Source: Akkermansia muciniphila
GTDB lineage: Bacteria > Verrucomicrobiota > Verrucomicrobiia > Verrucomicrobiales > Akkermansiaceae
NCBI GenBank assembly: GCA_945888515.1
Contig: CAMDAD010000001.1
Span: 124,001-188,000 of the forward strand
Reading direction: 5' to 3'
Length of the DNA: 64,000 nucleotides
In this document: positions 19,542 to 36,865 of the stretch, piece after piece
Layout: every line of letters begins with the position of its first letter
How positions within the stretch are numbered: the first letter of the stretch is position 1
Program-made: the position numbers and the translations under genes
The notes under the pieces: model-generated
Told to the model about the DNA's origin: nothing
The model's database searches: none
What the model saw: only the letters and a program-made list of their open reading frames with translations

Positions 19542-21044
19542 TCAACCATTGATGATCCATGCGGCGGCACCTACCACTGTAAAAATCGCGATCACGACCC
19601 AAAGGAAAATCAGCACCGAACTGGATGCAGCGGAACCAGTTTGCTGCAATCGATCGTAGCGGCCCTTGAGTTTGCCCTTACGCAGGAATCCATCGTAGTG
19701 GCGTTGCAGGAGGTGAGTTTCTACCTGACGCATCACGTCCAGCACCACGCCAACAAGAATTAGCAAGGAAGTACCTCCGAAGAATTGCAGGATCGGCGAG
19801 TTTTTATCGATATTCATCAGCAATCCTACTGCCGAGGGTAGCACGAAGATCGCTGTGAGGAAAATGGCACCAGCGAAGGTGAGACGGGTCATCGTGTAAT
19901 CGAGGAACTCGCCCGTTGGCTTGCCCGGACGCACGCCAGGGATGTAGCCGCCATTCTTTTTCAGGTCCTCTGCGATTTGCGAAGGCTGAAACATCGTGGC
20001 CACCCAGAAATACGAGAAGAAGAAAATCCCGATCGCTCCGAGAGTGTAGTAGAGCCAGCCTTGACCGACCGCTTGCTGCAGCTTGATCGACCAAGCCGCC
20101 TTGCTACCGATCATCTGCAATAGAATACCGGGAAGCGTGATCACTGCCGAAACGAAAATGATGGGCATCACACCTGAGTAGTTCACTTTCAGGGGCAGGT
20201 ATTGCGTCTGACCGCCGAACTGTTTTTTGCCAACCACACGTTTGGCATACTGCACCGTGATCTTGCGTTGCGCTTGCGTGATCGAAATCACTGCTGCGAT
20301 CACAAATACGAGGAAGGCTAGCATGAATACCAACTTCAGTGCGATAAAAGGATTTGCATCGACTCCCGTGGTGAACATTTTCCAAGCAAGCACCAGAGCA
20401 CCCGGCAACGCTGAGATGATGTTGACCATAATGATGATAGACGTTCCATTGCCGATACCGCGTTCCGTCATCTGATCGCCGATCCACATCAACAACATCG
20501 TGCCGGAAACGATGGTCATGAGTGAAAGCGCATGCCAGGCAAAACTCGGATCCGGAACGAGGAGTCGACCGTTCATTACTTGCTCGATCCCACTCATCAG
20601 ACCAGCCAACTGCTCCGGATGGGTGAGTGTAGCCGTGAGGAAATAGCCCTGCACCAGAGCGATGATCAGTGCGAGATAGCGAGTGTATTGGGTGATCTTC
20701 TGGCGTCCGCCTTCTTCGCGAGAAAGTTTAGAGAGCTTAGGAATGACCGCCGTCATCAACTGCACCATGATCGACGCCGAAATGTATGGCATGATACCGA
20801 GAGCAAAAATACCTGCTTGCTGCAGAGCGCCACCCGAAAACACCGTGAGCATAGCAGTGAGCGGATTGCCCGTGCCACCATCGCCCTTAGCCATAAACTT
20901 AGTCCACTCATCGATTAGTCCCGCATCCACTCCGGGGAGTGTGATATGGGCACCGAGACGTACGATAACAATCATCGCCAGAGTGAAAAGAATCCTGTCG
21001 CGTAATTCAGGAACGCGCCATGTGTTAGCAAATGCAGAGATCAT
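19542..21044 (-). CDS. secY: Preprotein translocase subunit SecY
   Basis: SecY is the ten-helix channel through which unfolded proteins cross the inner membrane. The 500-residue protein opens MISAFANTWRVPELRDRIL and contains the plug and TM2 region FSGGALQQAGIFALGIMPYI, later MVNIISALPGAL, and IPGVRPGKPTGEFLDYTMTRLTF before the C-terminal helices. It is somewhat longer than the E. coli protein, with extra residues in early loops. It lies at the end of the spc genes. A 111-base gap separates it from rplO and holds a short perfect hairpin (21073-21088) and an A/T tract, which may be a regulatory leader. Confidence 0.97.
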   Translation of the reverse strand: MISAFANTWRVPELRDRILFTLAMIVIVRLGAHITLPGVDAGLIDEWTKFMAKGDGGTGNPLTAMLTVFSGGALQQAGIFALGIMPYISASIMVQLMTAVIPKLSKLSREEGGRQKITQYTRYLALIIALVQGYFLTATLTHPEQLAGLMSGIEQVMNGRLLVPDPSFAWHALSLMTIVSGTMLLMWIGDQMTERGIGNGTSIIIMVNIISALPGALVLAWKMFTTGVDANPFIALKLVFMLAFLVFVIAAVISITQAQRKITVQYAKRVVGKKQFGGQTQYLPLKVNYSGVMPIIFVSAVITLPGILLQMIGSKAAWSIKLQQAVGQGWLYYTLGAIGIFFFSYFWVATMFQPSQIAEDLKKNGGYIPGVRPGKPTGEFLDYTMTRLTFAGAIFLTAIFVLPSAVGLLMNIDKNSPILQFFGGTSLLILVGVVLDVMRQVETHLLQRHYDGFLRKGKLKGRYDRLQQTGSAASSSVLIFLWVVIAIFTVVGAAAWIING

Positions 21045-21155
21045 AAAGGAAAAAGAAAAAAAATGTGCTGCGGCACTGTAAACAGTGCGAGGAAGCGCGC
21101 AAGCACTTCCCCGCAGGAATCGTAAGATTTTATTCCAAATGCGAGGAAAGAATGA

Positions 21156-21602
21156 TCAAGCAGGTTGGATGGTGCCACCTGCTTTTTCAATCTTCTCACG
21201 GGCAGATGCGCTTACGTGGGCGAGCTGGATGGTCAGGCTTTTGGTGATTTCCCCGTTGCCAAGGATTTTCACGTGGTCGTAACGACCATTGACCAGTCCG
21301 CAACTACGCAACACTTCTTCGTTGATGACCGCCCCGCTCTCAAAGTTTTCCTCGAGAGTAGCGACATTCACGCCGAATACTTTGGTTTTGTAATCGTAGT
21401 TGTTGAAGCCACGCTTCGGTAAACGACGATGGAGAGGCATCTGACCACCTTCGAAGCCGACGCGGACAGTGCCGCCGGAGCGTGCTTTTTGTCCTTTGTT
21501 GCCTTTGCCGGAGGTTTTGCCGTGACCGGAGCTTTCGCCGCAACCGAGACGCTTTACGCGGTGCTTGGATCCGGGATTGGGAGATAATGTGTGAAGTTTC
21601 AT
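21156..21602 (-). CDS. rplO: Ribosomal protein L15
   Basis: A 148-residue large-subunit protein. MKLHTLSPNPGSKHRVKRLG is followed by the glycine-rich HGKTSGKGNKGQKARSGG that threads into 23S rRNA, and a globular C-terminal domain with ITKSLTIQLAHVSASAREKI. Only 22 bases separate it from rpsE. rpmD (L30), which usually lies between them, is absent. Confidence 0.97.
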   Translation of the reverse strand: MKLHTLSPNPGSKHRVKRLGCGESSGHGKTSGKGNKGQKARSGGTVRVGFEGGQMPLHRRLPKRGFNNYDYKTKVFGVNVATLEENFESGAVINEEVLRSCGLVNGRYDHVKILGNGEITKSLTIQLAHVSASAREKIEKAGGTIQPA

Positions 21603-21624
21603 GTCCTACTGGATAGTGTGAGGG

Positions 21625-22293
21625 TTAAATCGCTTTGGTGGCGACTTTTTTGCCACGGGAGCTGAGGATGGTTTCGCGGGTGCGTAGACCGGAGAGAGCC
21701 TTGATGGTGGCTTTCACCACGTTGGCGTGGTTCGAGGAACCCATCGACTTGGCGAGGATGTCCTTGACGCCTGCGGCTTCGCAAACGGCACGCACACCAC
21801 CACCGGCGATGATTCCCGTTCCGGGCGATGCTGGCTTGAGCAGCACCTTGCCACCACCGAATTCGGCATAGACTTCGTGCGGCACAGTGCCATTCACGAT
21901 GGTCACCGCGGTGAGGTTCTTGCGGGCTGCCTGGCCACCTTTTTTGATGGCATCGGATACTTCCTTCGCTTTGCCGAAACCGAGGCCGACTTTGCCTTCC
22001 TTATCGCCGCAAACGACGAGGGCGGAAAAGCTGAAACGACGACCACCTTTTACGACTTTGGCGCAACGGTTGATGAACACCACTTTTTCGGAAATGCCAT
22101 CATCCACTTCAGGGCGACGGTCATCACGACGTGGGCCTCGGTTGTTGCCGCCACCTTGACCGCCACGGTTGAAGCCACCTGGGCCGCCACGGCGTTGATC
22201 AAAGCCACCGGAGTTTGCCACCGGCCCGAGAGCGGTGTCTGCGGCGGGAGCGGGAGTTTCGGGAGAAACGGGAATGTCAGAGTCTGTTACCAT
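21625..22293 (-). CDS. rpsE: Ribosomal protein S5 with RGG-rich N-terminal extension
   Basis: S5 helps with decoding accuracy in the small subunit. The conserved body starts at about residue 69 ([20 protein letters not shown]) and contains [17 protein letters not shown] and [19 protein letters not shown]. Ahead of it is an extra domain of about 65 residues: an acidic/Pro-Ala start, then an RGG-like block ([20 protein letters not shown]). Total length is 222, against about 165 in most bacteria. The extension is in frame and has no plausible internal start between it and the body, so it is probably translated. Confidence 0.96.
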
Positions 22294-22305
22294 AGAGAGT
22301 GTGTA

Positions 22306-22662
22306 TTAGAATTGGAGACCGGCTTCCCGGGCGGCTTCGGCAAGAGCTTTCACTTTGCCATGATAAATGTGACCACCGCGGTCGAAGACCACGGCGCTGA
22401 TGTTGGCAGCCTTGGCGCGCTCTGCGATCAAGGCACCGATGCTGCGGGCGCAGTCGCAGTTGGCCTGCGCTTTTTCGCTGCCTTTGTCCAAGGTGGACGC
22501 GGAAACGAGGGTGCGTCCGGCGACATCGTCGATGATCTGAACGTATACGTGCTGGTTGGAGAAATGCACGGCGAGGCGTGGACGGCTGGATGTGCCAGCG
22601 ACCTTGCGGCGGATGCGTTTGTGAACGCGCTGCCGGATTTCTTTGCGATTGATCGTACTCAT
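22306..22662 (-). CDS. rplR: Ribosomal protein L18
   Basis: A 118-residue 5S rRNA-binding protein. It has the basic N-terminus [18 protein letters not shown], then [19 protein letters not shown] and the C-terminal [20 protein letters not shown]. Length is normal. It sits 35 bases after rplF and 12 before rpsE. Confidence 0.97.
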
Positions 22663-22697
22663 GTAATGAAAAATGTGTTAGAGTGAATGGCGACTGA

Positions 22698-23240
22698 TTA
22701 TTTGCCGACGGATTTACCTTCCTTACGACGAACGTGTTCGCCCACGTAACGGACGCCTTTGCCTTTGTATGGTTCGGGAGGATAGTATCCACGAACTTCA
22801 GCGGCGAATTGTCCGACCATTTGCTTGTCGATGCCCTCGACCTTGATCTTGGTGTTATCGGTAACGGTAACGGTGAGACCATCGGGGATCGGGTGAAGCA
22901 GCGGGTGCGAGCGACCGAGGGACAGGTCCAAGTCCTTACCTTTCACGGCGGCACGGAAACCCACGCCTTGGATTTCAAGGTCCTTGACGAAGCCTTTCGA
23001 GACTCCGTTGATCATGTTGTTGACGATAGCGCGAGCGGTGCCGTGGAGGGCACGCAGCTGGCGTGAGGTCTCCGAGTTGCGGGTGACCGTCAATTTGTTG
23101 TCTTGGTTGCTCAGTTCGATACCGGCGGGAAGGTTGAAGGAAAGTGTTCCTTTGGGACCTTCTACAGTGACGATGCCACCGTCACTCTTAACGGTAACTT
23201 TTTCGGGCAAGCTGATTGGTTTAACTCCTACGCGTGACAT
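22698..23240 (-). CDS. rplF: Ribosomal protein L6
   Basis: A 180-residue protein of the large-subunit factor-binding region. It starts MSRVGVKPISLPEKVTVK, with TVEGPKGTLSFNLP, and ends with the signature PPEPYKGKGVRYVGEHVRRK. Two tandem L6 domains are visible. Position and length are as expected. Confidence 0.97.
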   Translation of the reverse strand: MSRVGVKPISLPEKVTVKSDGGIVTVEGPKGTLSFNLPAGIELSNQDNKLTVTRNSETSRQLRALHGTARAIVNNMINGVSKGFVKDLEIQGVGFRAAVKGKDLDLSLGRSHPLLHPIPDGLTVTVTDNTKIKVEGIDKQMVGQFAAEVRGYYPPEPYKGKGVRYVGEHVRRKEGKSVGK

Positions 23241-23267
23241 AATGTATGATGGTATGGGGTTAGTGGT

Positions 23268-23666
23268 TTACCAAACGATGGCGAGAAGTTCTCCTCCGAG
23301 TTTTTCCCGCTTAGCGCGCGCACCGGTCATCACACCCTTCGAGGTCGAAAGGATGGAGATGCCGAGGCCGGACATAACGCGTGGAATTTCATCGGAGCCG
23401 ACATAATTGCGACGACCAGGCTTGGAGACGCGCTTCAGTCCGGTGAGGACGGGGCGGCCATCGACAAACTTGCCTTTGACTTTGAGGGTGGGGAAGCCTT
23501 CGGTGGTGACGACTTCATAGCTCCAGACATAACCTTCTTCCTGAAGGATCTTGGCGATGTCTGCTTTGATGCGCGAATAAGGCGCGGTGAAGACTTCATT
23601 GCCGGCACGGCTTGCATTGCTGAAGCGTGTCAGGAAGTCGGAAATAGGATCGGTAAGAACAGCCAT
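23268..23666 (-). CDS. rpsH: Ribosomal protein S8
   Basis: A 132-residue 16S rRNA-binding protein and, in E. coli, the translational repressor of the spc operon. It has DPISDFLTRFSNASRAG at the N-terminus, PGRRNYVGSDEIPRVMSG, and the C-terminal STSKGVMTGARAKREKLGGE. It begins 20 bases after rplE; rpsN (S14), usually found here, is missing. Confidence 0.97.
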   Translation of the reverse strand: MAVLTDPISDFLTRFSNASRAGNEVFTAPYSRIKADIAKILQEEGYVWSYEVVTTEGFPTLKVKGKFVDGRPVLTGLKRVSKPGRRNYVGSDEIPRVMSGLGISILSTSKGVMTGARAKREKLGGELLAIVW

Positions 23667-23686
23667 AATAAGGTGCGGTAAATGGG

Positions 23687-24277
23687 TTAGGCTTGGGCGG
23701 CTTCTGGGGTTTCGCTTTCGGTCTCGCGTTTGTTTTCGCGGAATGGCATGCCCAGCGCTTTGAGCAATTCACGGCCTTCGTTGTCCGTTGCGGCAGATGT
23801 AACGAAAATCAGGTCAAAGCCGATATTACGTTTGATCTGGTCGATTTCAATCTCAGGGAAGATCGATTGATCCGGCACGCCCATGGCGTAGTTACCGCGG
23901 CCATCGAAGGATTTGTAAGGGATACCACGGAAGTCGCGGATGTTAGGAGCGGTGATGTTGATGAAACGATCCAAGAACTCCCACATGCGGGCACCACGGA
24001 GGGTAACGCGAGCACCAAGAGGCTCGTCAGCGCGGAGTTTGAAGTTTGCAACGGCTTTGCGCGAGAACGTGATCGAGGGCTTTTGGCCGGTGATCTTGGC
24101 GATCTCATTGGCGGCGTCCTCGACAGCGAGCTTGCGGTCGGGAGCTTTGCCCATGCAGGAAGTCACCACGATTTTCTCGAGGCGAGGGACGGCGTTCGGG
24201 TTGGTGTAACCCAGTTTCTCCTTGAGGGCCGGAACGGCTTTCTCGCGGTAATGTTGTAGTAGTCTAGGTGTGCTCAT
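23687..24277 (-). CDS. rplE: Ribosomal protein L5
   Basis: A 196-residue 5S rRNA-binding protein. PRLEKIVVTSCMGKAP, TGQKPSITFSRKAVANFKLR, and RGIPYKSFDGRGNYAMGVPD are the family landmarks. The last 20 or so residues (an acidic, Glu-rich tail after MPFRENKRE) extend slightly beyond the usual end. It lies between rplX and rpsH. Confidence 0.97.
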   Translation of the reverse strand: MSTPRLLQHYREKAVPALKEKLGYTNPNAVPRLEKIVVTSCMGKAPDRKLAVEDAANEIAKITGQKPSITFSRKAVANFKLRADEPLGARVTLRGARMWEFLDRFINITAPNIRDFRGIPYKSFDGRGNYAMGVPDQSIFPEIEIDQIKRNIGFDLIFVTSAATDNEGRELLKALGMPFRENKRETESETPEAAQA

Positions 24278-24314
24278 ATGTGTATTTTAGCGGGTCAGCG
24301 CATTTTGTATGCTT

Positions 24315-24358
24315 GCGCTTAAGCGCGGGCAAAGTGCCATGTCGTTCCGGGGAACGAC
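24315..24358. other. Two strong hairpins in the rplX-rplE gap
   Basis: The 88-base gap contains the palindrome GCGCTTAAGCGC (24315-24326) and an 8-bp perfect inverted repeat, GTCGTTCC/GGAACGAC (24341-24358). Neither has a T-tract typical of termination. They may stabilise mRNA ends or serve as a ribosomal-protein binding site ahead of rplE. Confidence 0.45.
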
Positions 24359-24365
24359 GCAGTGC

Positions 24366-24605
24366 TTAGCCCAGTTTCTTTACGTTGGAAATATGGATGG
24401 GTGCGTCTTGGGACAGCAGACCGCCGTCGGGATTCGCTTCCGATTTGCGGGTGGCCTTGGTCACCAAACGGGTGTCGCCCACAATGACAGTGCCCTTCTT
24501 GGCGTTGACTGCGAGAACCGTGCCACGCTTGCCTTTGATGGCGACGCTGCCCGTGGTGATCTCGACTTGATCGCCTTTTTTGACGTGTGTTTTGATTTTG
24601 CTCAT
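24366..24605 (-). CDS. rplX: Ribosomal protein L24
   Basis: A short (79-residue) L24, an early assembly initiator of the large subunit. [20 protein letters not shown] is the KOW motif and [11 protein letters not shown] the typical end. Many L24 proteins are about 100 residues; the missing part is the variable C-terminal tail. Confidence 0.94.
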
Positions 24606-24626
24606 GTGAAAGAAAAAAGATAGATG

Positions 24627-24992
24627 TTAGACGACTTCCGGGGCAAGGGAAACAATTTTCATGAACGACTTTTCGCGAAGTTCACGAGCTACGGGGCCGA
24701 AGATACGTGTGCCACGCGGGTTGTTGTCTTTGTCGATGATGACAATGGCGTTGGTATCGAAACGAAGCACCGAGCCATCGGCGCGGCGGATCGGGGCGCT
24801 GGTGCGAACGACCACAGCCTTAACGACAGATCCTTTTTTCACCGAAGCGGTGGGGATCGAGTCGCGGATGTGGGCGGTGATCACATCGCCGACGTGGGCA
24901 AAGCGGGTGCGTTTGCCAATGACGCCAATCATTTTGGCGCTTTTCGCGCCGGTGTTATCGGCAACGACTACGGAAGATTCCATTTGGAGCAT
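24627..24992 (-). CDS. rplN: Ribosomal protein L14
   Basis: A 121-residue protein at the subunit interface. [54 protein letters not shown] and [13 protein letters not shown] are all family landmarks, and the length is exact for bacteria. Confidence 0.97.
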
Positions 24993-25036
24993 GAGTCAAT
25001 AAAGTGTGTGGTGGTGAACGAACGGGCGGATGTGTA

Positions 25037-25306
25037 TTAGTGAGTGAGGATGGAGTCAAGCGCCCAACGCTTTAATTTTGAGGTAGGGCGTGATTCCACG
25101 ATACGAACTTTGTCGCCGACTTTGGCCTCACTTTTTTCATCGTGCACATAGAATTTCTTCGTCTGCTTGATGATTTTGTTGAAGCGTGGGTGCGGAACGC
25201 GGGCGACGTATTCGACGACGATGGTTTTATCCATCTTGTCGGAAACGACGAGGCCGACGCGGGTTTTGCGTTTGGTGGCAGGAGTGTTAGTGGCGGAATC
25301 GCTCAT
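25037..25306 (-). CDS. rpsQ: Ribosomal protein S17
   Basis: An 89-residue OB-fold protein of the small subunit. KTRVGLVVSDKMDKTIVVEY, HPRFNKIIKQTKKFYVHDE and GDKVRIVESRPTSKLKRW are diagnostic. It lies 44 bases upstream of rplN in the usual L29-S17-L14 order. Confidence 0.97.
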   Translation of the reverse strand: MSDSATNTPATKRKTRVGLVVSDKMDKTIVVEYVARVPHPRFNKIIKQTKKFYVHDEKSEAKVGDKVRIVESRPTSKLKRWALDSILTH

Positions 25307-25333
25307 AAAAAAAGAAAGTCAGTGGTGGAAGAA

Positions 25334-25537
25334 TTATGCCTTAGCTTTGCGCTCGGCGAGGAGGGTGACCAGGCGTGCGTTTTCACGACGGATCTCACGG
25401 ACGCGTGCGGGATTTTCTAGGGCACCGGTGGCTTTTTGCAACTTCAGGTTAATGCCCTCAAGTTTCAGATCGCGAATGCGGCGGTTGATTTCGTCCACGG
25501 ACAGTTCGCGAAGATCTTTTGCTTTGGTAGTGGCCAT
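25334..25537 (-). CDS. rpmC: Ribosomal protein L29
   Basis: A 67-residue helical hairpin protein near the exit tunnel. KDLRELSVDEINRRIRDL and the C-terminal PARVREIRRENARLVTLLAE match the family. It sits between rplP and rpsQ. Confidence 0.96.
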   Translation of the reverse strand: MATTKAKDLRELSVDEINRRIRDLKLEGINLKLQKATGALENPARVREIRRENARLVTLLAERKAKA

Positions 25538-25555
25538 ATGGGTGATGAGGTAAAA

Positions 25556-25975
25556 TTATGCGTGTGGGTTGCGAACGACAAAACGGGTAGGAATGCCGAG
25601 TTTGTAGGAAGCGAGGCGCATGGCTTCGCGGGCTTGGGATTCCGGCACGCCGGCGATCTCAAAAAGCATGTTACCGGGGCGTAGCACGGCGACCCATGCT
25701 TCCACGGAGCCCTTGCCTTTACCCATCCGGGTTTCGGGGGGACGTGCGGTGATCGATTTGTGGGGGAAAATCCGGATCCAGACTTTTCCTTTCCGTTTCA
25801 GGAAACGGTTGATCGCGATACGGCAGGCTTCAATCTGACGGTTGGTCATCCAGCCGCGGTCAAGAGCCTGGAGACCGAAGTCGCCGAAAGCTACGGTGGT
25901 TCCGGAAGTCGCATTTCCTGCGCGGGAGCCGCGGAAAGATTTGCGGAACTTGGTTCGTTTGGGCATCAAAGGCAT
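25556..25975 (-). CDS. rplP: Ribosomal protein L16
   Basis: A 139-residue protein that organises the tRNA sites of the large subunit. [33 protein letters not shown] and [18 protein letters not shown]-like residues ([20 protein letters not shown]) identify it. The start here is well supported: AGGAGG lies nine bases before the ATG at 25975, one of the few clear Shine-Dalgarno sites in this operon. A second ATG at 25966 is in frame. Confidence 0.97.
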
Positions 25976-26032
25976 AGCAGTGTCCTCCTAAAGTGTGTGT
26001 GAATTGTGTTGTGTGAAAAAGGATGAAATCGA

Positions 26033-26767
26033 TTAGCGACGCTCGCCACCACGATTGTTGTCACGGCGATCACCACCGCGATTGTTGTTGTCACGGCGTT
26101 CGCGGCGTTCGCGTGGAGGACCACCAGCGCCCGGACGACCATCGTCTTCCTTGCGGTTGATCCAGCACTTGACACCGATGATGCCATAAAGAGTGCGGGC
26201 CTCGGCGAAACCGTATTCGATCGGCACGCGGAGTGTTTGGAGAGGCACTTTGCCTTCACGATACCACTCGGCACGGGCGATATCGGCACCGCCCAAACGA
26301 CCGGCGCAGCGAACGCGAATGCCTTCGGCACCGAATTCCATGGCGGTTTGCAGGCAGCGCTTCATGGCGCGGCGGAAAGAAACACGACGCTCCAATTGCT
26401 GGGCGATGTTTTCGGCAACAAGTTGTGGCTCCAGCTCAGGCTTGCGAATTTCGAGAATGTCAATTTTGACTTGAGCACCACCGCAGATCTTGGAGATCTC
26501 GTTGGTCATTCTCTCGATCTCGCTGCCTTTGCGACCGATGATGAGTCCTGGGCGTGCCGAGTGCAGAGTCACACGCACCGAGTTCCAGGCACGCTCGATG
26601 ACGACCTTAGCAATCGCAGCAAACTGGAGGTTCTTCTTCACGTATTCGCGCACGGCGAGGTCTTCGTGAAGTTTATTGGCGTAATCTTTGCCAGTGGCAA
26701 ACCACTTGGAGCGCCAGTCCTTATTGACGGCGAGGCGGAAGGCGATCGGATTGACTTTTTGTCCCAT
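26033..26767 (-). CDS. rpsC: Ribosomal protein S3 with RGG-rich C-terminal tail
   Basis: S3 lines the mRNA entry channel. The 244-residue protein starts MGQKVNPIAFRLAVNKDW, has the KH motif RPGLIIGRKGSEIE and the C-domain GRLGGADIARAEWYREG, and then continues past the usual end with about 30 residues of Arg/Gly/Asn repeats (RRDNNNRGGDRRDNNRGGER). The DNA there is a short tandem duplication (26041-26105). S5 in the same operon carries a matching extension at its other end. Confidence 0.97.
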   Translation of the reverse strand: MGQKVNPIAFRLAVNKDWRSKWFATGKDYANKLHEDLAVREYVKKNLQFAAIAKVVIERAWNSVRVTLHSARPGLIIGRKGSEIERMTNEISKICGGAQVKIDILEIRKPELEPQLVAENIAQQLERRVSFRRAMKRCLQTAMEFGAEGIRVRCAGRLGGADIARAEWYREGKVPLQTLRVPIEYGFAEARTLYGIIGVKCWINRKEDDGRPGAGGPPRERRERRDNNNRGGDRRDNNRGGERR

Positions 26768-26795
26768 AATTGAATGAAGTTAGAAGTGATTGTGC

Positions 26796-27179
26796 TTATT
26801 CGGCAGCTTTGGCGGTTTTAGCGGCTTTTGCTTTTTTCGCAGGAGCCGGTGCGTCGGTAAGAGTGATGAAAATGTGGCTGGTGGGGCGGCGGATCGCACC
26901 AGCGGAGCCCTTGGCACGGGGTTTGAAACGCTTGAGCGCGGGGCCGATGCCGATGGTAGCTTCCTTGATCGTCAATGATTCGGCATCTAGTTTGAAATTG
27001 TGCTCAGCATCAGCCATGGCTGTCTTGAGAGTTTTGCCGATCAACATCGCCGCTTTTTTTGGCGTGAAGTTGAGGATATCCATGGCGCTGCTCGCGGGCA
27101 GGCCTTGAATTTCGCGGGCGACGTCGCGCGCTTTCTTGGGCGAGAGACGAACGTATTTTGATGTGCTTTTGACTTCCAT
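26796..27179 (-). CDS. rplV: Ribosomal protein L22
   Basis: A 127-residue protein with an extended loop reaching the exit tunnel. MEVKSTSKYVRLSPKKARDV is the canonical start; the frame stays open upstream, but that part overlaps the previous gene and is rejected. SGIGPALKRFKPRAKGSAG-like residues (IGPALKRFKPRAKGSAGAIR) mark the loop. The C-terminus has an Ala-Lys-rich tail (PAKKAKAAKTAKAAE). Unusually, it is separated from rpsS by a non-ribosomal gene. Confidence 0.96.
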   Translation of the reverse strand: MEVKSTSKYVRLSPKKARDVAREIQGLPASSAMDILNFTPKKAAMLIGKTLKTAMADAEHNFKLDAESLTIKEATIGIGPALKRFKPRAKGSAGAIRRPTSHIFITLTDAPAPAKKAKAAKTAKAAE

Positions 27180-27210
27180 GGTCGTAGGATCTTGTGATGT
27201 GCCGTAAGGC

Positions 27211-27957
27211 TTATCGTTGTGGTTGTGTTTCGAGAAGGATGGTGTCGCCGAGGCGGACGGTTTCGTTAGAAGGATCAAGTTGTTCGACGAAGGCACCGGC
27301 GACATTCTTACGAACGTCAGCGATGATGGCCTTGCCGTAGGGGCGCTCGCCGCGCATGATGGTGTAGGTCATACCGATACGGCAGTCTTGACTTTGGCCG
27401 ACGTTAACGACCAGCAGACCACTTTCCGCGTCGATGCTCACTACCTGAGCGCGTTGAAGCGAGCCAGTTTTGAGATCGGGGCGCGGTTTATGGCGCAGTC
27501 CGAGGGCGGCGTCAAGCTCGCGGAGCGAAGTTTCAAGGCGCAGGCGAGCGTCCGGATCCGAGACGACGGCTTGACGCACGAAGTCTTGGGTGTGAGAGGC
27601 TAGTCCCATCGCGGCTTTTTCCGTTACTTCCAGGCGCTCTTGCAGCAGTTGCTGTTCGGCAGCGGCTTGGACGAGGCGGTCATCGCCACCATCGAGCAAA
27701 TTCTTGCCGAGGGCTTCAAGGCGTTGCTTGATTTGCGACAGTTGCTGCACGGCTTCCTGTTCACCACGTTTGGCTTCGATTACGGTGGTCGCGAGGATCT
27801 CGTTCTGCTTGCGCAGTTTGGCGATCTCGTGGCGCAGCGCATCGACTTCGGAAAGAGTAACTCCCTCGCGGACATCCTGTGCCGTGGCCACAGCAATCCC
27901 CGCGCCCAACCCGAAGGTGGCGAAAGCGAGGAAACGCATGGATGTGGCGAGGAACAT
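27211..27957 (-). CDS. Exported coiled-coil protein embedded in the S10 operon
   Basis: This 248-residue protein is not ribosomal. It has a signal peptide (MRFLAFATFGLGAGIAVATA), a long coiled coil at about 35-115 (heptads around LRHEIAKLRKQNEILATTV and QQLSQIKQRLEALGKNLL) and a compact all-beta C-terminal domain at about 168-243 (VVSIDAESGLLVVNVGQSQD, then IGMTYTIMRGERPYGKAII). That domain resembles the small barrel found at the end of FlgT-like envelope proteins; I hold that loosely. It lies 20 bases after rpsS and 31 before rplV, with no promoter or terminator visible, so it is cotranscribed with ribosomal genes. No function is claimed. Confidence 0.85.
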   Translation of the reverse strand: MFLATSMRFLAFATFGLGAGIAVATAQDVREGVTLSEVDALRHEIAKLRKQNEILATTVIEAKRGEQEAVQQLSQIKQRLEALGKNLLDGGDDRLVQAAAEQQLLQERLEVTEKAAMGLASHTQDFVRQAVVSDPDARLRLETSLRELDAALGLRHKPRPDLKTGSLQRAQVVSIDAESGLLVVNVGQSQDCRIGMTYTIMRGERPYGKAIIADVRKNVAGAFVEQLDPSNETVRLGDTILLETQPQR

Positions 27958-27977
27958 GATGTTTGTGCGAGAATGGA

Positions 27978-28247
27978 TTATTTCTTACCGATGCCGCCGT
28001 GAGCTTTGAAGATGCGGGTGGGCGAAAACTCACCGAGCTTGTGGCCGACCATGTTTTCTGTCACGAAGACAGGCACGAAAGTTTTGCCATTGTGAACGGC
28101 AAAGTTGTGACCGACGAAATCGGGAGTGATCATGGACTTACGGCTCCAAGTTTTGATCGCCTTGTATTCACCAGTGGCGGCGACGGCGTCAATCTTGGCG
28201 AGGAGCTTTTGGTCAACGAAGGGACCTTTTTTCAATGAGCGAGGCAT
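27978..28247 (-). CDS. rpsS: Ribosomal protein S19
   Basis: An 89-residue small-subunit head protein. [39 protein letters not shown] and [20 protein letters not shown] are unmistakable. rplB lies 28 bases upstream. Downstream comes the exported coiled-coil gene instead of rplV. Confidence 0.97.
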
Positions 28248-28275
28248 AGAATGAGTGAGTTAAAATGAAATGGGA

Positions 28276-29112
28276 TTACTTCTTGGGACGGGCCGAGACG
28301 ATGAAGATCGAGCTGGCTTTCTTCTTGTTGCGAGTCTTCTGACCTTTGGCATGACCCCAAGGACTGAGAAGGTGCTTACGACCACCACCCGATTTCGAGC
28401 GGCCTTCACCACCACCGTTCGGGTGGTCGACTGGGTTCATGGTCATACCGCGGACGGTAGGACGAACGCCCATCCAGCGCGTGCGACCTGCTTTGCCAGA
28501 TACTTCGTTCATGTGCTCACGATTGCCGACCTGACCAATCGTGCAGAGGCAGTTTTCGTTAAATCGACGAATTTCACCGGAAGGCATTTTCACCAGGCCA
28601 TAACCAGCTTCGCGGTTGGAAAGGATGGCTTGCTGGCCAGCGGCACGAGCCACTTTGCCGCCCGAACCGGGGAGCAGCTCGATATTGTGAATCACGGTTC
28701 CTAAGGGAACGCTCTTCAGCGGCATCGCGTTGCCGGGTTTGGGATCGGCTTTGACCGTAGAGATGACAGATGCGCCGACTTCCAGACCGACAGGTGCCAA
28801 AATGTAGCTCTTGGTGCCATCGGTGTATTGGATCAAAGCGATGCGGCAAGTGCGGTTCGGATCGTATTCGATGCCGAGCACGGTAGCGGGCATATCCGTT
28901 TTGTTGCGCTTGAAGTCAACAAGACGATAGTGACGCTTTGCGCCGCCGCCGACGTGGCGCATGGTGATGCGACCGGTGTTGTTACGACCACCGCTGCGTT
29001 TGATGGGAGAAAGCAACGACTTTTCAGGAGTCGTTTTAGTGATCTCATCAAAGGTAGGGTGTTGCTTGTAGCGCCCGGATGGAGTGTGTGGTTTGAAAAC
29101 TTTTAAGGCCAT
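28276..29112 (-). CDS. rplB: Ribosomal protein L2
   Basis: A 278-residue protein essential for subunit joining and peptidyl transferase structure. It has [40 protein letters not shown] and the C-terminal [18 protein letters not shown]. Length and order are standard. Confidence 0.98.
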
Positions 29113-29153
29113 GACTCAGAGTGTGGTTGAGTGTTCGGAAAGGTTGGGTGAAA

Positions 29154-29438
29154 TTACACGAGGTCGAGTTTCTCGCCTTCTTTCAGGCGCACGATCGCTT
29201 TTTTGATGTGGTTGGTGCGTCCTTCGTCGGCACGGCGGCGGCGCTTGGCTTTGCCCCGGCAGTTGAGGGTGCGCACATCGGCGACCTTCTTGCCAAGGAG
29301 TGTCTCCACCGCTTGCTTGATTTCGAGTTTGTTCGCGTGGGGATCCACATCGAGTACGATCTCATTGTTGAGTTCGTTCAGGTAAGTGGCCTTCTCGCTC
29401 ATGCGGACGTTTTTAATGACGTGGAAAAGATCTTTCAT
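29154..29438 (-). CDS. rplW: Ribosomal protein L23
   Basis: A 94-residue exit-tunnel protein that docks trigger factor and SRP. MSEKATYLNELNNEIVLDV and IKQAVETLLGKKVADVRTLN match the family; the basic hairpin is KAKRRRRADEGRTNHIKKA. Its start is 5 bases from the rplD stop. Confidence 0.95.
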   Translation of the reverse strand: MKDLFHVIKNVRMSEKATYLNELNNEIVLDVDPHANKLEIKQAVETLLGKKVADVRTLNCRGKAKRRRRADEGRTNHIKKAIVRLKEGEKLDLV

Positions 29439-29443
29439 AACAA

Positions 29444-30052
29444 TTAAGCGGTACGTTTGGCGAGGGTTGTGAGGGCGCTGCCGACGACGAAAATATCGTT
29501 GTGGAGCATGATGTGTTCTACATTCACTTCCGCAGAGGTCATCAACAGCACGTTTTGCACATTGCGACCGGCGAGGTAAGTTTGTTCCGTGAATGAATCA
29601 GCAATGATCAAAATGCGGCGAGCCGAGGAAAGCGCGGCGACGGCGGCAACGAAAGACTTCGTTTTACCATCCGTAATTTCAAACGACTCAATCGTCTTAA
29701 TCGATCCAGCGCGGATGTTATCACCCAGCACGCGGCGCAGGGCCAACTTGCGTGTGGTTTTGCTGACTTTTTTGGTGTAATCGCAAGCGCGAGGGCCGAA
29801 GACTACGCCACCGCCGACAAAAATCGGCGCGCGTTTGTCACCGTGGCGGGCGCCACCAGTGCCTTTTTGCTTATAGATTTTCTTGTTGTTGCCGGACACT
29901 TCGCCACGGGTTTTGGTATGTGCGGAACCGGTGCGACGGTTGGCACGATACGCCGTGATGAGGTCGTGAACAGCCTGGGTGCCTTTATCGGCGGGCGCGA
30001 GGAGCATGTGGGCGGCCTCGGCGGCTTCTACGGTAAGAGTGTGGGAAGACAT
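29444..30052 (-). CDS. rplD: Ribosomal protein L4
   Basis: A 202-residue protein with a tunnel-reaching loop; in E. coli it also represses the S10 operon. [20 protein letters not shown] and [20 protein letters not shown] form the loop, followed by a Rossmann-like C-terminal half. It lies in the standard L3-L4-L23 order. Confidence 0.97.
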
Positions 30053-30089
30053 GACGTGAAATGATGGTTCGTGGTTCGATTCAAGCTAC

Positions 30090-30728
30090 TTACGCAGACT
30101 TTTTCTTGGCGGGACGGACGGTGACGTAGCTGCCTTTGGCGCCAGGGATCGCTCCGGAGATGAGCAAAACGCCATCTTCCGCGCGCACGGCGACGACTTT
30201 CAGGTTCTGCACGGTGCGTTGTTTGTTACCGTCCTGACCAGGCATCTTTTGGTTTTTCCAAACGCGACCGGGAGTGGAGCGGCAACCGATGGCACCTGTT
30301 CTGCGGTGCATCATCGAACCGTGGGTCATGCGCAGACCGCCGAACTTGTAGCGTTTCACAACGCCAGTGAAGCCGTGACCTTTGCTGGTGCCGATGACGT
30401 CAACGAATTGACCGGCGGTGAAAAGATCCGCACCGGGATGGGTGTCGGGGATCGTCTCGCTACCGCGGAGGCGGAATTCTTGTATCTTGCGCTTCGGCGT
30501 GGAGCCAGCCTTGGTGAAATGGCCCATGTCCGCTTTGTTGACGCGCTGCACTTTTTTCTGGTCGTCAAAGCCGCATTGCACCGCTTTGTAACCTTCCTTC
30601 TCCGCAGTTTTGTGCTGCAGGTAGGTGTTGCCTTGCACGTCCACAACGGTCACGGGGATCATTGCTTGCGTGGCCTCGTCAAACAGACGGGTCATTCCGA
30701 GTTTCTTGCCGATAAGTCCTAGTGGCAT
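30090..30728 (-). CDS. rplC: Ribosomal protein L3
   Basis: A 212-residue protein near the peptidyl transferase centre. MPLGLIGKKLGMTRLFDE, TSKGHGFTGVVKRYKFGG and TPGRVWKNQKMPGQDGNK carry the family pattern. It sits 31 bases after rpsJ. Confidence 0.97.
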   Translation of the reverse strand: MPLGLIGKKLGMTRLFDEATQAMIPVTVVDVQGNTYLQHKTAEKEGYKAVQCGFDDQKKVQRVNKADMGHFTKAGSTPKRKIQEFRLRGSETIPDTHPGADLFTAGQFVDVIGTSKGHGFTGVVKRYKFGGLRMTHGSMMHRRTGAIGCRSTPGRVWKNQKMPGQDGNKQRTVQNLKVVAVRAEDGVLLISGAIPGAKGSYVTVRPAKKKSA

Positions 30729-30759
30729 AACGTTAAATTAGATAGAGTTGAAAAATGAG

Positions 30760-31068
30760 TTAGATGCGGATGGAAATGTCCACACCGGCGGGAAGATTGA
30801 GTTTTTTCAACTCATCAACCGTGCGGGCGGTAGGATCTACGATGTCAAGCAAGCGCTTGTGCGTGCGGATTTCGAATTGTTCAGCCGACTTTTTGTTCAC
30901 GTGAACCGAGCGGTTGACGCTAAACTTTTCAATGCGGGTCGGAAGCGGGATCGGTCCGGAGACTTTGGCGCCAGTGCGTTTTGCGGTTTCGACGATTTCG
31001 GCGGCGGATTTGTCCACGGCGCGATGATCGAAAGCGCGGAGTCGGATGCGTATTTTCTGATTTTCCAT
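30760..31068 (-). CDS. rpsJ: Ribosomal protein S10
   Basis: A 102-residue protein, also a transcription antitermination factor (NusE). [40 protein letters not shown] and [20 protein letters not shown] are diagnostic. It follows fusA after only 39 bases, with no tuf gene between and no terminator, so the str and S10 operons appear joined. Confidence 0.97.
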
Positions 31069-31107
31069 AACGAGGAGAAGGTGAGGATTGGTTGGTTAGC
31101 GAGGATA

Positions 31108-33267
31108 TTAGTAACGAGCGGTGCCGCCGCGTTCACTGACGATTTCATCGACAATGTTGTTGGGCACTTGTTCGAAGTGGGAAGGTGTCATCGAGTAGGA
31201 GGCGCGACCGGAGGAGAGTGTGCGAACGGCTGTGGAGTAGCCGAACATTTCCTTGAGAGGAACGGCGCAGCGGACCACGGCGAGTTTGCCTTTGGTATCG
31301 ATGCTGGTGATTTGACCGCGACGACGGTTGAGGTCGCCCATGACATCGCCCTGGTAGTCTTCCGGAGTGGAAACTTCCACGGCCATGATGGGTTCGAGCA
31401 AGATCGGCTTGGCTTTCTTGAAAGCTTCTTTCATGCCGAAAATCGCCGCCATGGTGAAGGCGTTTTCGTTCGAGTCCACATCGTGGTAAGAACCACCGAG
31501 GATGTCCACATGCACATCGATCACGGGGTAGCCGGCGATGATGCCATTCGACATCGACTCATTGACGCCCTTGTAAACGGCGTTGACATATTCTTTGGGG
31601 ATTTCTCCACCGACAATTTTGTTTTCGATCGTCAACCCCTTGCCTTTTTCGTTAGGGGCTACGGTGAGACGAACATGTCCGTATTGGCCGCGACCGCCGG
31701 ATTGCTTGACCAGCTTGCCTTCGGCAGCGGCGGGGGAAGTAATCGTTTCGCGATACGCGATTTGCGGAGCACCGGTATTGGCCTCGACTTTGAACTCGCG
31801 CTTGAGGCGATCGACGATGATCTCCAAGTGGAGTTCGCCCATGCCGGAAATAATGGTCTGGCCAGTTTCTTCATCGGTCTTCACCATGAAGGTCGGGTCT
31901 TCTTCCGACAGGCGACCAAGCGCGAGGGCCAGTTTTTCTTGGTCAGCTTTGGTTTTGGGTTCCACTGCCATCGAGATGACGGGTTCCGGGAAAGTGGGAG
32001 GCTCGAGCACCACATCGTGGTTTTCGGCGGCGAGGGTGTCGCCTGTGGTGACGTTCTTGATGCCCACCATTGCAGCGATGTCACCGGAATAACAAACATC
32101 CACATCGGTGTGGGTGTTTGACTGGATGCGGATCAGGCGGCCGACGCGCTCGGAGCGTCTGGTGCGCGGGTTATACACCGTGTCGCCTTTTTTGATTTTG
32201 CCAGAATAGACGCGGAAGAAAACGAGCTTGCCGACGAATTTGTCAGCCCAGAGTTTGAAGGCGAGCGAGACGAACTTTTGGTTGTCGTCCGTGATGACCT
32301 CGATCTTGCGCTCTTCATTGTCTGGATCCATGCCGATGGCGGAAGGGATATCGAGCGGGTTGGGCAGGTAATCGGCGACGGCATCGAGGAGATACTGCAC
32401 GCCTTTGTTCTTGAAAGCGGAGCCACCAGCAACGGGAATGAGGAGGTTAGCGATCGTAGCGCGGCGGATGCCTTGTTTCAGGTCTTCCTTGCTGATCGGC
32501 TCTTCCATTAGGAATTTTTCACCGACATGCTCATCGACACTGGCGACGGCATCGAGCAGCTCCGCATATGCTTCTTGAGCGATCAGGCTTTGCTCTTCGT
32601 CGAGGTCCTTAACCGTGTAGGTCGAGCCAAATTTGTCGTCGTCATTGTAGTAAACAGCTTTCTGGTTAACGACGTCGATTTGTCCCTTGAGCTGGTCTTC
32701 CGCACCGATCGGGATCAGGATGCGCACGGCATTCGCGCCGAGTTTTTCTTTTACTTCCTCAAAGACACTTTGGAAGTTGGCACCGGTGCGGTCCATCTTG
32801 TTGACGAACACGAGGCGCGGAACATTGTATTTTGTCGCCTGGCGCCATACGGTTTCCGTTTGCGGCTGCACCCCGGCGACGCCACAAAAGACGACGATCG
32901 CTCCATCGAGCACTCGGAGCGAGCGCTCCACCTCGGCCGTGAAGTCCACGTGACCAGGGGTGTCGATGATATTGACGCGCATTTTTTCCTCCGTGTAGAG
33001 CTTGGTCACGCCTTCTTCCTTGCGCTGCCACCACTCGGTAGTGACGGCGGCGGAGGTAATCGTGATGCCGCGCTCTTTTTCCTGCTCCATCCAGTCGGTC
33101 GTAGCCGCACCATCGTGCACTTCGCCGATCTTATGGATCATGCCGGTGTAGAACAAAATCCGCTCCGTCAAGGTCGTCTTGCCCGCATCAATGTGCGCAC
33201 AGATGCCGATATTCCGCGTGCGTTGCAGCGGATAGTGGCGATCAGGGCTATTGGGGTCGGACGACAT
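31108..33267 (-). CDS. fusA: Elongation factor G
   Basis: EF-G is the GTPase that drives translocation of tRNA and mRNA. The 719-residue protein starts [20 protein letters not shown] and shows [20 protein letters not shown] (P-loop), the switch region [37 protein letters not shown] and [10 protein letters not shown], then domains II-V ending near [19 protein letters not shown]. The frame is open upstream to 33465, but that part is antisense-like filler overlapping rpsG and has no homology. No Shine-Dalgarno is visible before the ATG. Confidence 0.98.
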
Positions 33268-33299
33268 GAAAGAGGAAAAATTTCGTTCAGGAAAAAAAA

Positions 33300-33773
33300 T
33301 TAGAAGCGGAAGTGAGCGAAGGCGCGGTTCGCCTGAGCCATCTTGTGCACGTCGTCGCGCTTGCGGACGGCGTTGCCTTGGTTGTTCGCGGCGTCTTTCA
33401 GTTCGTTGGCAAGGGCCACGTGCATGGGAGTTCCTTTGCGGTTGCGGGCGTAGTTGATGATCCAACGCATCGCGAGAGCTTCCGAGCGAGCGACTGGCAC
33501 TTCGAGCGGCACCTGATACGTAGCGCCACCAACGCGGCGGGATTTCACTTCCACGCGTGGCTTGGCGTTTTCGATGGCGCGGGTGACCACTTCCAAAGGA
33601 TCAATGGTCTCGGTGCCTTCGCTGGCGCGGTCGATCGCGGCATAGACGATGCGCTCGGCGAGCGCGCGTTTGCCATCGACCATGACTTTAGAAATCAGAT
33701 TGCCCACGAGCGCGCTATCATAGCGGGGATCGCGTTTTTCGGGCTTGTGGAATACTCGCTTACGACGTGACAT
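33300..33773 (-). CDS. rpsG: Ribosomal protein S7
   Basis: A 157-residue 16S rRNA head organiser. [40 protein letters not shown]-like residues ([20 protein letters not shown]) and [20 protein letters not shown] identify it. It is the second gene of the str array, 32 bases after rpsL. Confidence 0.97.
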
Positions 33774-33805
33774 AATGGAAAAAAGTTAAGTTGGGTCAGT
33801 TGAGA

Positions 33806-34222
33806 TTATTTTTTACCGCCCTTGCCCTTGGCAGGAGCTGCCGCCGCGCCGGGCTTCGGACGTTTGGCGCCGTATTTCGAACGGCTTTGACGACGTTTAT
33901 CGACACCGAGGGTATCGAGAGCGCCGCGAACGATGTGGTAACGAACACCGGGAAGGTCCTTCACACGACCACCGCGCACCAGAACGATGGAGTGCTCTTG
34001 AAGATTGTGACCTTCGCCGCCGATGTAGGCGATGACTTCGAAACCGTTAGTGAGACGCACTTTGGCCACTTTACGCAACGCGGAGTTGGGCTTCTTAGGC
34101 GTACGGGTCATCACCTGCAAACAAACACCACGGCGGGCCGGGCAGTTGGCGAGGGCGGGAGATTTGGACTTGTCCACGGGTGTTTTACGCCCTTTGCGAA
34201 CTAGTTGGTTGATGGTCGGCAT
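33806..34222 (-). CDS. rpsL: Ribosomal protein S12
   Basis: A 138-residue decoding-centre protein. [20 protein letters not shown] is the usual start; [20 protein letters not shown] keeps the lysines associated with streptomycin sensitivity, and [20 protein letters not shown] follows. A Gly-Lys-Ala tail ([13 protein letters not shown]) extends past the normal end. AGGA lies before the ATG at 34222; the open frame continuing upstream is not used. It is the first gene of the long ribosomal array. Confidence 0.97.
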
Positions 34223-34730
34223 GAGATTCCTGCGATTGTTGGTTAGATGTCTGCCATCAGGGGACATTCCGCAGGCCGCGAAATTCTTCGCAGGAGCCTG
34301 TTTTCCGGAGCTGCACCCGATAGCAAAAGTTAGTTGAAGCGCGGCGTTTGACTCAAAAGTCATTCGCGTGGCGCGATGTGGGGCGCGGATTCTCTCTATT
34401 TTCGACTTTAGCGCAAGCACCAATTTGAAATTTTTTGAGATTTTTCCGAAATCCTTGATTTATCAAGCAATTTTGGGTGATTTTTTGCGATAATCTTTTG
34501 TAAAACCATTCTCTATCCAAGGAAAAAACGCAAAAAATAGGCTCACATGCGATCGTTTTACGAGAAAAGGCAGCCTGAATTCCGCTCGAATCCTTTTGTA
34601 AAAAAATGATCCCCTTCTCTCACCCCTGCATCACTTCACACACATGGCCCCCCGATCGCTCGGTGTCATGATCGAGAGCTTGGGAAAAATCATCCTTGTT
34701 CGCACACTAGTATTGAGGCATGTTGGCGGC
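34223..34730. other. AT-rich divergent promoter region upstream of rpsL and yqeY
   Basis: About 500 bases lie between the divergent rpsL and yqeY starts. The stretch 34420-34600 is strongly AT-rich, with short A and T tracts, as expected of an upstream element for a very active ribosomal promoter. I could not fix a single convincing -35/-10 pair on either strand. No RNA gene or repeat is recognised. Confidence 0.5.
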
Positions 34731-35186
34731 ATGAGCACATTTGTGGAAAATCTCTCAGAAGACATCAAAAACGCCATGCGAGCCAAAGATAGCGTGGCTC
34801 TCAATACCCTGCGCGCCCTGAAGAGCGCACTGACGAACGCTTCTATCGAAAAAGGCGGCCTCGGCACGCCACTAGAAGAAGCCGAGTGCCTCGCCATCGT
34901 GCGCAAGCAGATCAAACAGCGCCAGGACTCCATCGAGCAGTTTGAAAAGGCCGGGCGCGCGGAACTCGCGGATAATGAAAAAGCCGAGTTGACCATTCTA
35001 CAAAAATTTCTCCCGGCCGCGCTCAGCGAGAGCGAGGTCGCCGAGTTGTTAGAAAAAGCCATCGCTGAAACAGGAGCCACCAGCAAGGCAGACATGGGCA
35101 AGGTGATGAAAGTTCTGCAAGAACTCGTCGATGGTCGAGCCGATGGCCGCACACTCTCGCAGGCCGTGATGAAACGTTTGAGTTAA
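34731..35186 (+). CDS. yqeY: GatB/YqeY domain protein
   Basis: A 151-residue protein related to the tRNA-binding tail domain of the amidotransferase subunit Gat[57 protein letters not shown] and [20 protein letters not shown] match the family. Its biochemical role is not settled. The ATG at 34731 is preferred over an earlier one at 34644, which adds a poorly conserved stretch. xth starts 4 bases after its stop. Confidence 0.93.
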
Positions 35187-35190
35187 GATC

Positions 35191-35955
35191 ATGCTACTGA
35201 TTTCCTGGAACGTGAATGGCATCCGCGCCGCGCTCACCAAGGGCATGGCGGACTTTGTCAGTGCGGAAAACCCCGACGTGCTGTGCCTGCAGGAAACCAA
35301 GGCGCGCGAGGAACAGGTCGATCTGCCATTCGAATTTTCCGGCTACAAACGCTACTGGAATTCCGCCCAAAAACCTGGTTATTCCGGCACGGCGATTTTT
35401 TCGAAAACAGCGCCGCTGTCGATCGAATACGGCATCCGTCATGACCATCACGACACAGAGGGTCGCGTCATCACAGCAGAGTTCACAACCTTCACGTTAG
35501 TCACCGTCTACACGCCGAACTCACAAGATGAGCTTCGCCGGCTCGACTACCGCGTGCAATGGGACAGGGATTTTCTCGCTTTCATCAAACTGCTAGAAGT
35601 CGAAAAAAAGAAGCCAGTCATCTTCTGTGGCGACCTCAACGTTTCGCATCAGGAAATCGACCTCGCTCGCCCGCGCGAAAACCGTAAAAATCCCGGCTTC
35701 ACCGATGAGGAGCGTCGAGGATTCTCGAACATGTTAGAAGCGGGTTTCACCGACACCTTCCGCCACCTCTATCCAGACAAGCGCGATGCTTACTCGTGGT
35801 GGTCCTATCGGGGCGGTGCCCGCGAGCGCAACGTGGGATGGCGTCTCGATTATTTCCTTACATCCCACATCATTCGCGACCGCATTGCCGCAGCGGAAAT
35901 TTTGCCACACGTTTATGGTTCCGACCATTGCCCCGTCAGTCTCCGACTTCACTAA
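35191..35955 (+). CDS. xth: Exodeoxyribonuclease III (AP endonuclease)
   Basis: This 254-residue Mg-dependent enzyme cuts at abasic sites and trims 3' ends in base-excision repair. [30 protein letters not shown] (catalytic Glu), [20 protein letters not shown] (Asp/Asn pair) and [11 protein letters not shown] (Asp-His) give the full active site. It is packed between yqeY and the MoxR ATPase with 4-base gaps on both sides, so the three likely form one operon. Confidence 0.96.
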
Positions 35956-35959
35956 CGCC

Positions 35960-36865
35960 ATGTCTCTCGAAGCCCTTCGCTCGCGCCTGCATCATACCGT
36001 TCTCGGCTCGGAAGATGCTGCGGAATTGCTGCTCATCGCTTTGCTCGCACGCGGCCATGCACTCATCGAAGGGGCGCCGGGCATAGGCAAGACCTCGCTG
36101 GCCTCGACTCTAGCAAAATCCATCGGTGGTGATTTCAAGCGCATCCAGTTCACCCCGGATCTGCTGCCCGCTGATTTGTTAGGCTATTCTCTCTATCGGA
36201 TCAATCAAGGCGACTTCCAGTTCATCCCCGGCCCCGTGTTCGCGCATTGTGTCCTGGCCGATGAGATCAACCGCACCTCGCCGCGCGTACAGTCCGCCCT
36301 GCTCGAGTGCATGAGCGAACAGCAGGTCACGCTCGATGGTGTGACGCACCATCTGCCCTCACCCTTCCTCGTCATTGCGACGCAAAATGACGTGCACACC
36401 AGCGGCACTTTTCCCTTGCCTGAGCCGCAGCTCGATCGCTTCCTGTTATCGATCCGCATGGAGCTACCGGATAACGATGTGCAGACCTCCATCCTGCTCG
36501 CCCATGCTCAAGGCAGTATCAACGGAAACGACACCACAGAGCTGCTGACGCGCGGACAGATTCTCCAATTGCAACAAGAAGTCGATGCCATTTATCTCCA
36601 CCCCTCGGTAGCCGCCTACATCACCTCGCTGGGTGATGCGCTGCGCCGTCTCGCTGGTGCCGAGCAATGCGTATCGATCCGCGCCCTGCTCAATCTCATG
36701 CAGGCCGCAAGAGCCCGCGCCTTTCTGGACAATCATAAAGAAGTCCACCCCGATCATGTGCAGGCCCTCTTCCCCGCCGTAATGCGCCACCGCATGCAGC
36801 TCGAAGACAGCTCCGAAGTTCAACTGCTGATCCAAGCAGCCTTGGAACAAGCCGCGGTTCCCTGA
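35960..36865 (+). CDS. MoxR-family AAA+ ATPase
   Basis: MoxR ATPases act as chaperones that help mature or activate partner proteins, often with a VWA protein. The 301-residue protein shows Walker A GAPGIGKTSLA, FTPDLLPADLLGYSLY, Walker B ADEINRTSPRVQSALLECMS and sensor ATQNDVHTSGTFPLPEPQLD. The usual downstream partners, DUF58 and VWA genes, are absent; the next gene is convergent. I chose the ATG at 35960; the longer frame overlaps xth. Confidence 0.93.
   Translation: MSLEALRSRLHHTVLGSEDAAELLLIALLARGHALIEGAPGIGKTSLASTLAKSIGGDFKRIQFTPDLLPADLLGYSLYRINQGDFQFIPGPVFAHCVLADEINRTSPRVQSALLECMSEQQVTLDGVTHHLPSPFLVIATQNDVHTSGTFPLPEPQLDRFLLSIRMELPDNDVQTSILLAHAQGSINGNDTTELLTRGQILQLQQEVDAIYLHPSVAAYITSLGDALRRLAGAEQCVSIRALLNLMQAARARAFLDNHKEVHPDHVQALFPAVMRHRMQLEDSSEVQLLIQAALEQAAVP

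Follow-up and report, generated by a model that had tools for sequence, protein, structure and literature searches.

The genes rpsS and rplV, which normally adjoin, form one of the most stable gene pairs in bacteria. Among the exported proteins that are relevant here, MreC consists of a coil followed by a barrel, the C-terminal domain of FlgT is part of the H ring protein of the Vibrio flagellum, and TsaP is a secretin-associated protein with a LysM plus a FlgT-like domain. The barrel of periplasmic adaptor proteins of the MexA/HlyD kind is described as having the same topology as the C-terminal domain of FlgT (PMC4446572). The insertions into the str-S10-spc cluster that PMC8046335 describes for Gammaproteobacteria and Bacilli lie mostly at the boundaries between operons, and break-up of the cluster often follows.

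We analyzed a window of 64,000 nucleotides from Akkermansia muciniphila, in which an earlier note had placed a gene, here called X, in the rpsS–rplV interval, separated from its neighbors by 20 and 31 bases; the open reading frame coordinates confirmed this. The S10-spc genes of the minus strand run in the order rpsJ, rplC, rplD, rplW, rplB, rpsS, X, rplV, rpsC, rplP, rpmC, rpsQ, rplN, rplX, rplE, rpsH, rplF, rplR, rpsE, where the ribosomal gene names were assigned by recognizing the translations. X is the sole long sense-strand open reading frame of the rpsS–rplV junction, and a protein search found it as a single copy in its own genome. Like the insertions described in PMC8046335, X is a non-ribosomal gene within the conserved cluster; unlike those described there, it lies inside S10 and is kept across a phylum. 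The reading we favor, with confidence that stands about midway, is that X is an S10 member, co-transcribed and exported, which would serve in the envelope as a scaffold or adaptor whose supply follows that of the ribosomes. We infer its co-transcription, export and envelope location, and hypothesize its scaffold or adaptor function and the coupling to growth rate. The features of the locus are as follows.

27978..28247, minus strand: rpsS (S19), upstream neighbor of X, with its stop at 27978
27958..27977, minus strand: rpsS–X junction, 20 bases, sense strand without promoter-like or terminator-like site
27211..27957 (stop included), minus strand: gene X, putative exported coil-plus-barrel protein of 248 aa, ATG start at 27957
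27880..27957, minus strand: signal-peptide-like N-terminus, residues 1–26, from sequence reading, with a predicted A-T-A cleavage site
27505..27855, minus strand: long helix, residues 35–151, a probable coiled coil with a one-residue break (AlphaFold2 model md79e0f3c3b50)
27229..27453, minus strand: six-strand beta barrel, residues 169–243 (strands 170–242), the most conserved part of X
27180..27210, minus strand: X–rplV junction, 31 bases, sense strand without promoter-like or terminator-like site
26796..27179, minus strand: rplV (L22), downstream neighbor of X, with its ATG at 27179

The description of X as embedded in the S10 operon also held, as the gene shares the strand of its neighbors, the gaps are short, and the sense strand of the junctions is devoid of internal promoter-like or terminator-like sites. 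A scan of 21500–34600 found three promoter-like sites, fewer than the mean of 5.5 in shuffled sequences; the sense strand around X had none. Sense-strand terminator-like sites were located at 23.5, 24.8, 32.1, 32.9, and 34.4 kb, with both X junctions free, and thus the sense-strand scan gave no sign in either junction of the isolated promoter or terminator that, according to the earlier note, would speak against its reading. No leader or other RNA family reached the Rfam gathering threshold in 20000–36000. Since the junctions lack such sites and the gaps are short in all carriers of X (at most 62 bases between rpsS and X, except for 132 in L170, which has a probable alternative start, and at most 94 bases between X and rplV), it is very likely that X is co-transcribed with rpsS and rplV. 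Like 16 of the 17 ribosomal genes tested, X has no Shine–Dalgarno match of at least 4 bases; among these 17 genes (21625–33773), rplP alone has such a match at most 20 bases from its start.

Measured against the 17 ribosomal genes, X had a codon adaptation index (CAI) of 0.664, within the leave-one-out range of the ribosomal genes themselves (0.626–0.742) and higher than that of 31 of 32 other long open reading frames of the window, which were picked mechanically. Other non-ribosomal genes, namely an isocitrate-dehydrogenase-like open reading frame (0.626) and two paralogues of X described below (0.633 and 0.601), reach similar values, and the CAI of X therefore indicates strong adaptation without being unique.

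The N-terminus of X, MFLATSMRFLAFATFGLGAGIAVATA followed by QD, resembles on reading by eye a signal peptide with an A-x-A site. A simple window test found a hydrophobic N-terminus in 93 of 97 X homologues; the same test was also positive within the body of 41 of the 97 proteins and is for that reason weak evidence, so the statement that X looks like a signal-peptide protein is based on position and sequence reading. The four homologues that failed the test were L015, whose N-terminus has by eye the look of an ordinary signal peptide, L132, whose ATG overlaps rpsS, and L116 and L170, in which a signal peptide would require an unusual start codon. Some N-termini look lipobox-like, as in L186. 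The mature protein of the window is acidic (pI 5.56), and the pI after residue 30 is basic (>8.5) in 23 of the 97 homologues. Ribosomal proteins are usually basic and cytoplasmic, whereas X has its signal-peptide-like N-terminus and this acidic mature pI, two features that argue against X being one of them.

The helix has a period of 3.55, which is heptad-like but modest (reached by 13 of 500 shuffles), and in L030, L107, and L045 the heptad pattern is weak. In the barrel, residues G187, G195, R202, R216, G237, and D238 are each kept in at least 89 of the 97 homologues, and the barrel of the window protein modeled alone from seven sequences gave a pLDDT of 80. Most homologues consist of a signal peptide, a long helix and the barrel; intermediate forms have 164–194 aa, and the shortest forms, of 112–130 aa, consist of signal peptide and barrel only (L105, L106, L135, L140, L145, L147, and L179). 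Judged from these sequences, the barrel and the predicted export signal persist, and the coil is absent in several lineages and not part of the conserved core. The earlier picture of a protein with signal peptide, coil and small beta domain thus stands for the signal-like N-terminus, the helix and what is now a six-strand barrel in the model, and fails for the coil in the 112–130 aa forms.

When compared with known structures, the barrel of X matched the N-terminal barrels of the alpha and beta subunits of F1-ATPase with a VIA Z of about 10 and an rmsd of 1.7–4.1 over 66–82 residues, and also a flagellar LPHT ring chain (VIA), which by its length we take to be FlgT. The whole model matched FlgT (3w1e) with a Foldseek E of 6e-3. 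No Foldseek match was below 1e-3, either from the whole model, which is dominated by the barrel, or from the domain alone, and the fold assignment is based on E values of about 1e-3 to 3e-2 at probability 1.00, a domain TM of about 0.65 and the VIA Z of about 10. On the predicted model, the barrel is of the F1-ATPase N-terminal/FlgT-C fold class, with six strands as in F1-ATPase. Such a common barrel fold says nothing specific about the function of X, and a shared fold is no proof of function.

X fell below every Pfam and NCBIfam cut-off. Its Pfam coiled-coil matches (YscO with E 7.7e-4, ZapB, and others), all below cut-off, are typical for any coil, and the one NCBIfam match had an E of 1.2. 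The C-terminal domain of FlgT (PF16538; 3w1e) shares with X the six-strand F1-ATPase N-terminal-type barrel and location in an exported protein, export being predicted for X; FlgT has further domains of which X shows no sign. Membership of the FlgT_C family was rejected, as the window protein has no PF16538 match above the cut-off of 27 bits; 7 of 38 X homologues, the window protein not among them, match this family weakly at E up to 1 (best 0.03). An identity with FlgT of the flagellar H ring was likewise rejected: the own genome, which is 97.5% complete, has no match to YscJ_FliF, a family present in 4 of 14 control genomes. MreC shares with X the order of coil and barrel in a protein that is exported (for X by prediction), and differs in having a membrane anchor where X has the signal-peptide-like N-terminus. 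The profile match of X to the MreC chain 9dvb was weak (E 0.18), and X was rejected as MreC because it has no PF04085 match and the genome carries a separate MreC at another locus (E 1.5e-33). With MreC encoded elsewhere and matches to FliF and PF16538 absent from the genome, neither identity with MreC nor a flagellar role is likely for X. Periplasmic adaptors of the MexA/HlyD kind resemble X in combining helices with a barrel, but X has no match to a Pfam adaptor family, and no efflux genes were recognized beside it.

One rival reading is that X is a TsaP/FlgT-like ring or anchor for the secretin of type IV pili. The profile of X matched TsaP (3jc8) weakly over the barrel (E 0.03), which together with the FlgT fold match points in this direction, as does the abundance of PilQ, which PMC4960237 ranks first among the outer membrane proteins of A. 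muciniphila. However, X has a long helix in place of the LysM of TsaP (its Pfam matches up to E 10 included no LysM, for which reason X was rejected as TsaP itself), a search of the own genome at E 1 found nothing for PF16538, the missing FliF leaves no sign of a flagellum, and pilus genes are not near X. We consider a role as secretin partner rather improbable.

The earlier note had proposed a survey of rpsS–rplV spacing across Verrucomicrobiota, and in this survey all 57 genomes drawn from the same order carried X (10 from the genus, the own genome included, 25 more from the family and 22 more from the order). Its open reading frame lies just before rplV in all 57 and just after rpsS in 56; in L051, rpsS is cut off by the contig start and the X–rplV side was seen. 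Beyond the order, X was present in 40 of the 80 loci in which both flanking genes could be placed. Within the class, these were 32 of 62 loci (31 clear and 1 weak; absent in 30), and in the other classes of the phylum 8 of 18 placeable loci (absent in 10), from 31 loci read. Counted by family, the loci read included at least one carrier for 28 of 48 families in the rest of the class and for 8 of 28 families in the other classes. A chance insertion or misassembly in one genome, the possibility that would have undone the claim, is ruled out, as 57 of 57 relatives and another 40 loci carry X in this very junction.

The 93 loci read beyond the order (X present in 40, absent from 40, and rplV beyond reach of rpsS in 13, all of the latter outside the class) were chosen by hand from rpsS positions, about one or a few per family, and are therefore no random sample; families missing from them include f19, f46, f50, f54, and f77. 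L143 (E 0.01) was entered as a carrier, and L031–L036 and L064–L093, most of which repeat genomes already counted, were left out. A profile search of 189 class genomes gave matches in 147, and junctions were read in place of profile matches because many weak matches in the class are paralogues elsewhere. In family f16, all five loci read were without X; four more genomes of this family (G094, G118, G176, and G200) have by eye a barrel match just after rpsS and are uncounted.

In junctions without X, rpsS and rplV are usually about 0 bases apart (-4 to 210 in the 39 that hold no long open reading frame), and one further junction (L125) holds an unrelated open reading frame in place of X. No decayed copies of X were seen in 12 gene-less junctions of at least 60 bases. 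Of the 137 readable junctions, 40 are without X, so at this site bacteria of the phylum can do without the gene. A 0.9 Mb genome of family f18 (G072, L115) has no X and still a gap of 145 bases; G136 (L116), a 2.5 Mb genome with the same genus label, has X.

To follow the history of the gene, we compared it with a ribosomal tree of L2, S19, L22, and S3 from 137 genomes, the root of which we set on the class split. Genomes of other classes split cleanly from the class, with X carriers on both sides. The presence of X required 11 changes on this tree against a mean of 34.8 (minimum 28) in 1000 label shuffles. Barrel distances followed ribosomal distances with a Mantel r of 0.72 (n = 97; permutation maximum 0.21), and outside the order with an r of 0.65 (n = 40; permutation maximum 0.27). 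The simplest account of these sequence comparisons is an ancestral insertion before the classes parted, followed by repeated clean loss; in single cases, X could have been transferred into the same junction. X thus appears to be an old member of the S10 operon, inherited mostly vertically. The dN/dS of whole X was 0.08–0.20 in six pairs, for which some dS values were saturated; by part, it was highest in the signal peptide (0.20–0.87) vs 0.03–0.17 in coil and barrel. As judged from these ratios, X is under purifying selection.

The main rival to an envelope scaffold supplied with the ribosomes is that X is a useful exported protein whose seat in S10 has no regulatory meaning: it would have landed there in an ancestor and stay because it is hard to move out harmlessly or because strong expression comes free. 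The constant position of X, although its length ranges between 112 and about 360 aa and the identity of its barrel to that of the window falls to 17–18%, is consistent with this, and so is the existence of unlinked paralogues that have such a barrel and do without the operon. A profile search revealed a distant pair of them on another contig of the own genome.

L189:5182-5982 and 6019-6930, contig C5 of the own genome: tandem paralogues of X

These have an N-terminal membrane anchor, a long helix and the barrel. Their relatives occur, as pairs or singles, in nine other genomes, two of them of family f12, in which all three junctions read are without X; the neighbors of the unlinked paralogues showed no conservation by eye, without a family scan. 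On the other side, X was cleanly lost many times with gaps back to about 0 and is therefore not hard to remove, and its ribosomal-like codon usage suggests that the high expression is used, but neither point proves regulation. We regard a seat without regulatory meaning as possible, though clearly second to the envelope scaffold reading.

In the envelope scaffold reading, X would share a transcript with rpsS and rplV, be exported through the inner membrane, and act in the envelope. Interactions would be the work of the barrel, and the helix, in the forms that have it, would oligomerize the protein or act as a spacer, so that X would be a structural adaptor or scaffold made in amounts that follow ribosomal protein synthesis. 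A stronger version holds that Verrucomicrobiota hard-wire an envelope scaffold into S10, with one transcript setting both supplies and envelope capacity following ribosome output; this we offer as speculation that is probably too strong. In its bolder form, the mid-operon signal peptide would also bring S10 polysomes to the membrane.

In a further rival reading, a membrane tether, the nascent signal peptide of X would draw the S10 polysome to the translocon, or mature X would act in ribosome assembly at the membrane. The persistence of signal peptide and mid-operon place even in the 112–130 aa forms fits such tethering. Nevertheless, the mature window protein is acidic, purifying selection on the barrel implies a role at the protein level, and we know of no precedent for a membrane tether of S10 translation; we consider it highly improbable.

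The literature searched gave no description of an X-like protein or of an envelope–ribosome link through S10, and the Akkermansia essentiality and proteome literature, supplementary tables excluded, had nothing on X. The gene marks a conserved, putatively exported family that has no curated name, in the phylum to which Akkermansia belongs, and its place between rpsS and rplV makes it a natural case for asking whether selection favors an envelope protein's membership in an operon with ribosomal genes. From its long retention, X looks like part of how these cells tie envelope building to ribosome making.

Two further observations concern the surrounding operon. The S10 operon looks broken at the 13 other-class loci at which rplV is not near rpsS (L156–L158, L163, L164, L168, L169, L174, L175, L180, L181, L183, and L184), several of which have other genes after rpsS. 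In part of the order (L019, L023, L026, and others), several hundred bases separate the rplV match from the rpsC match, perhaps reflecting a long L22 tail or an extra open reading frame.
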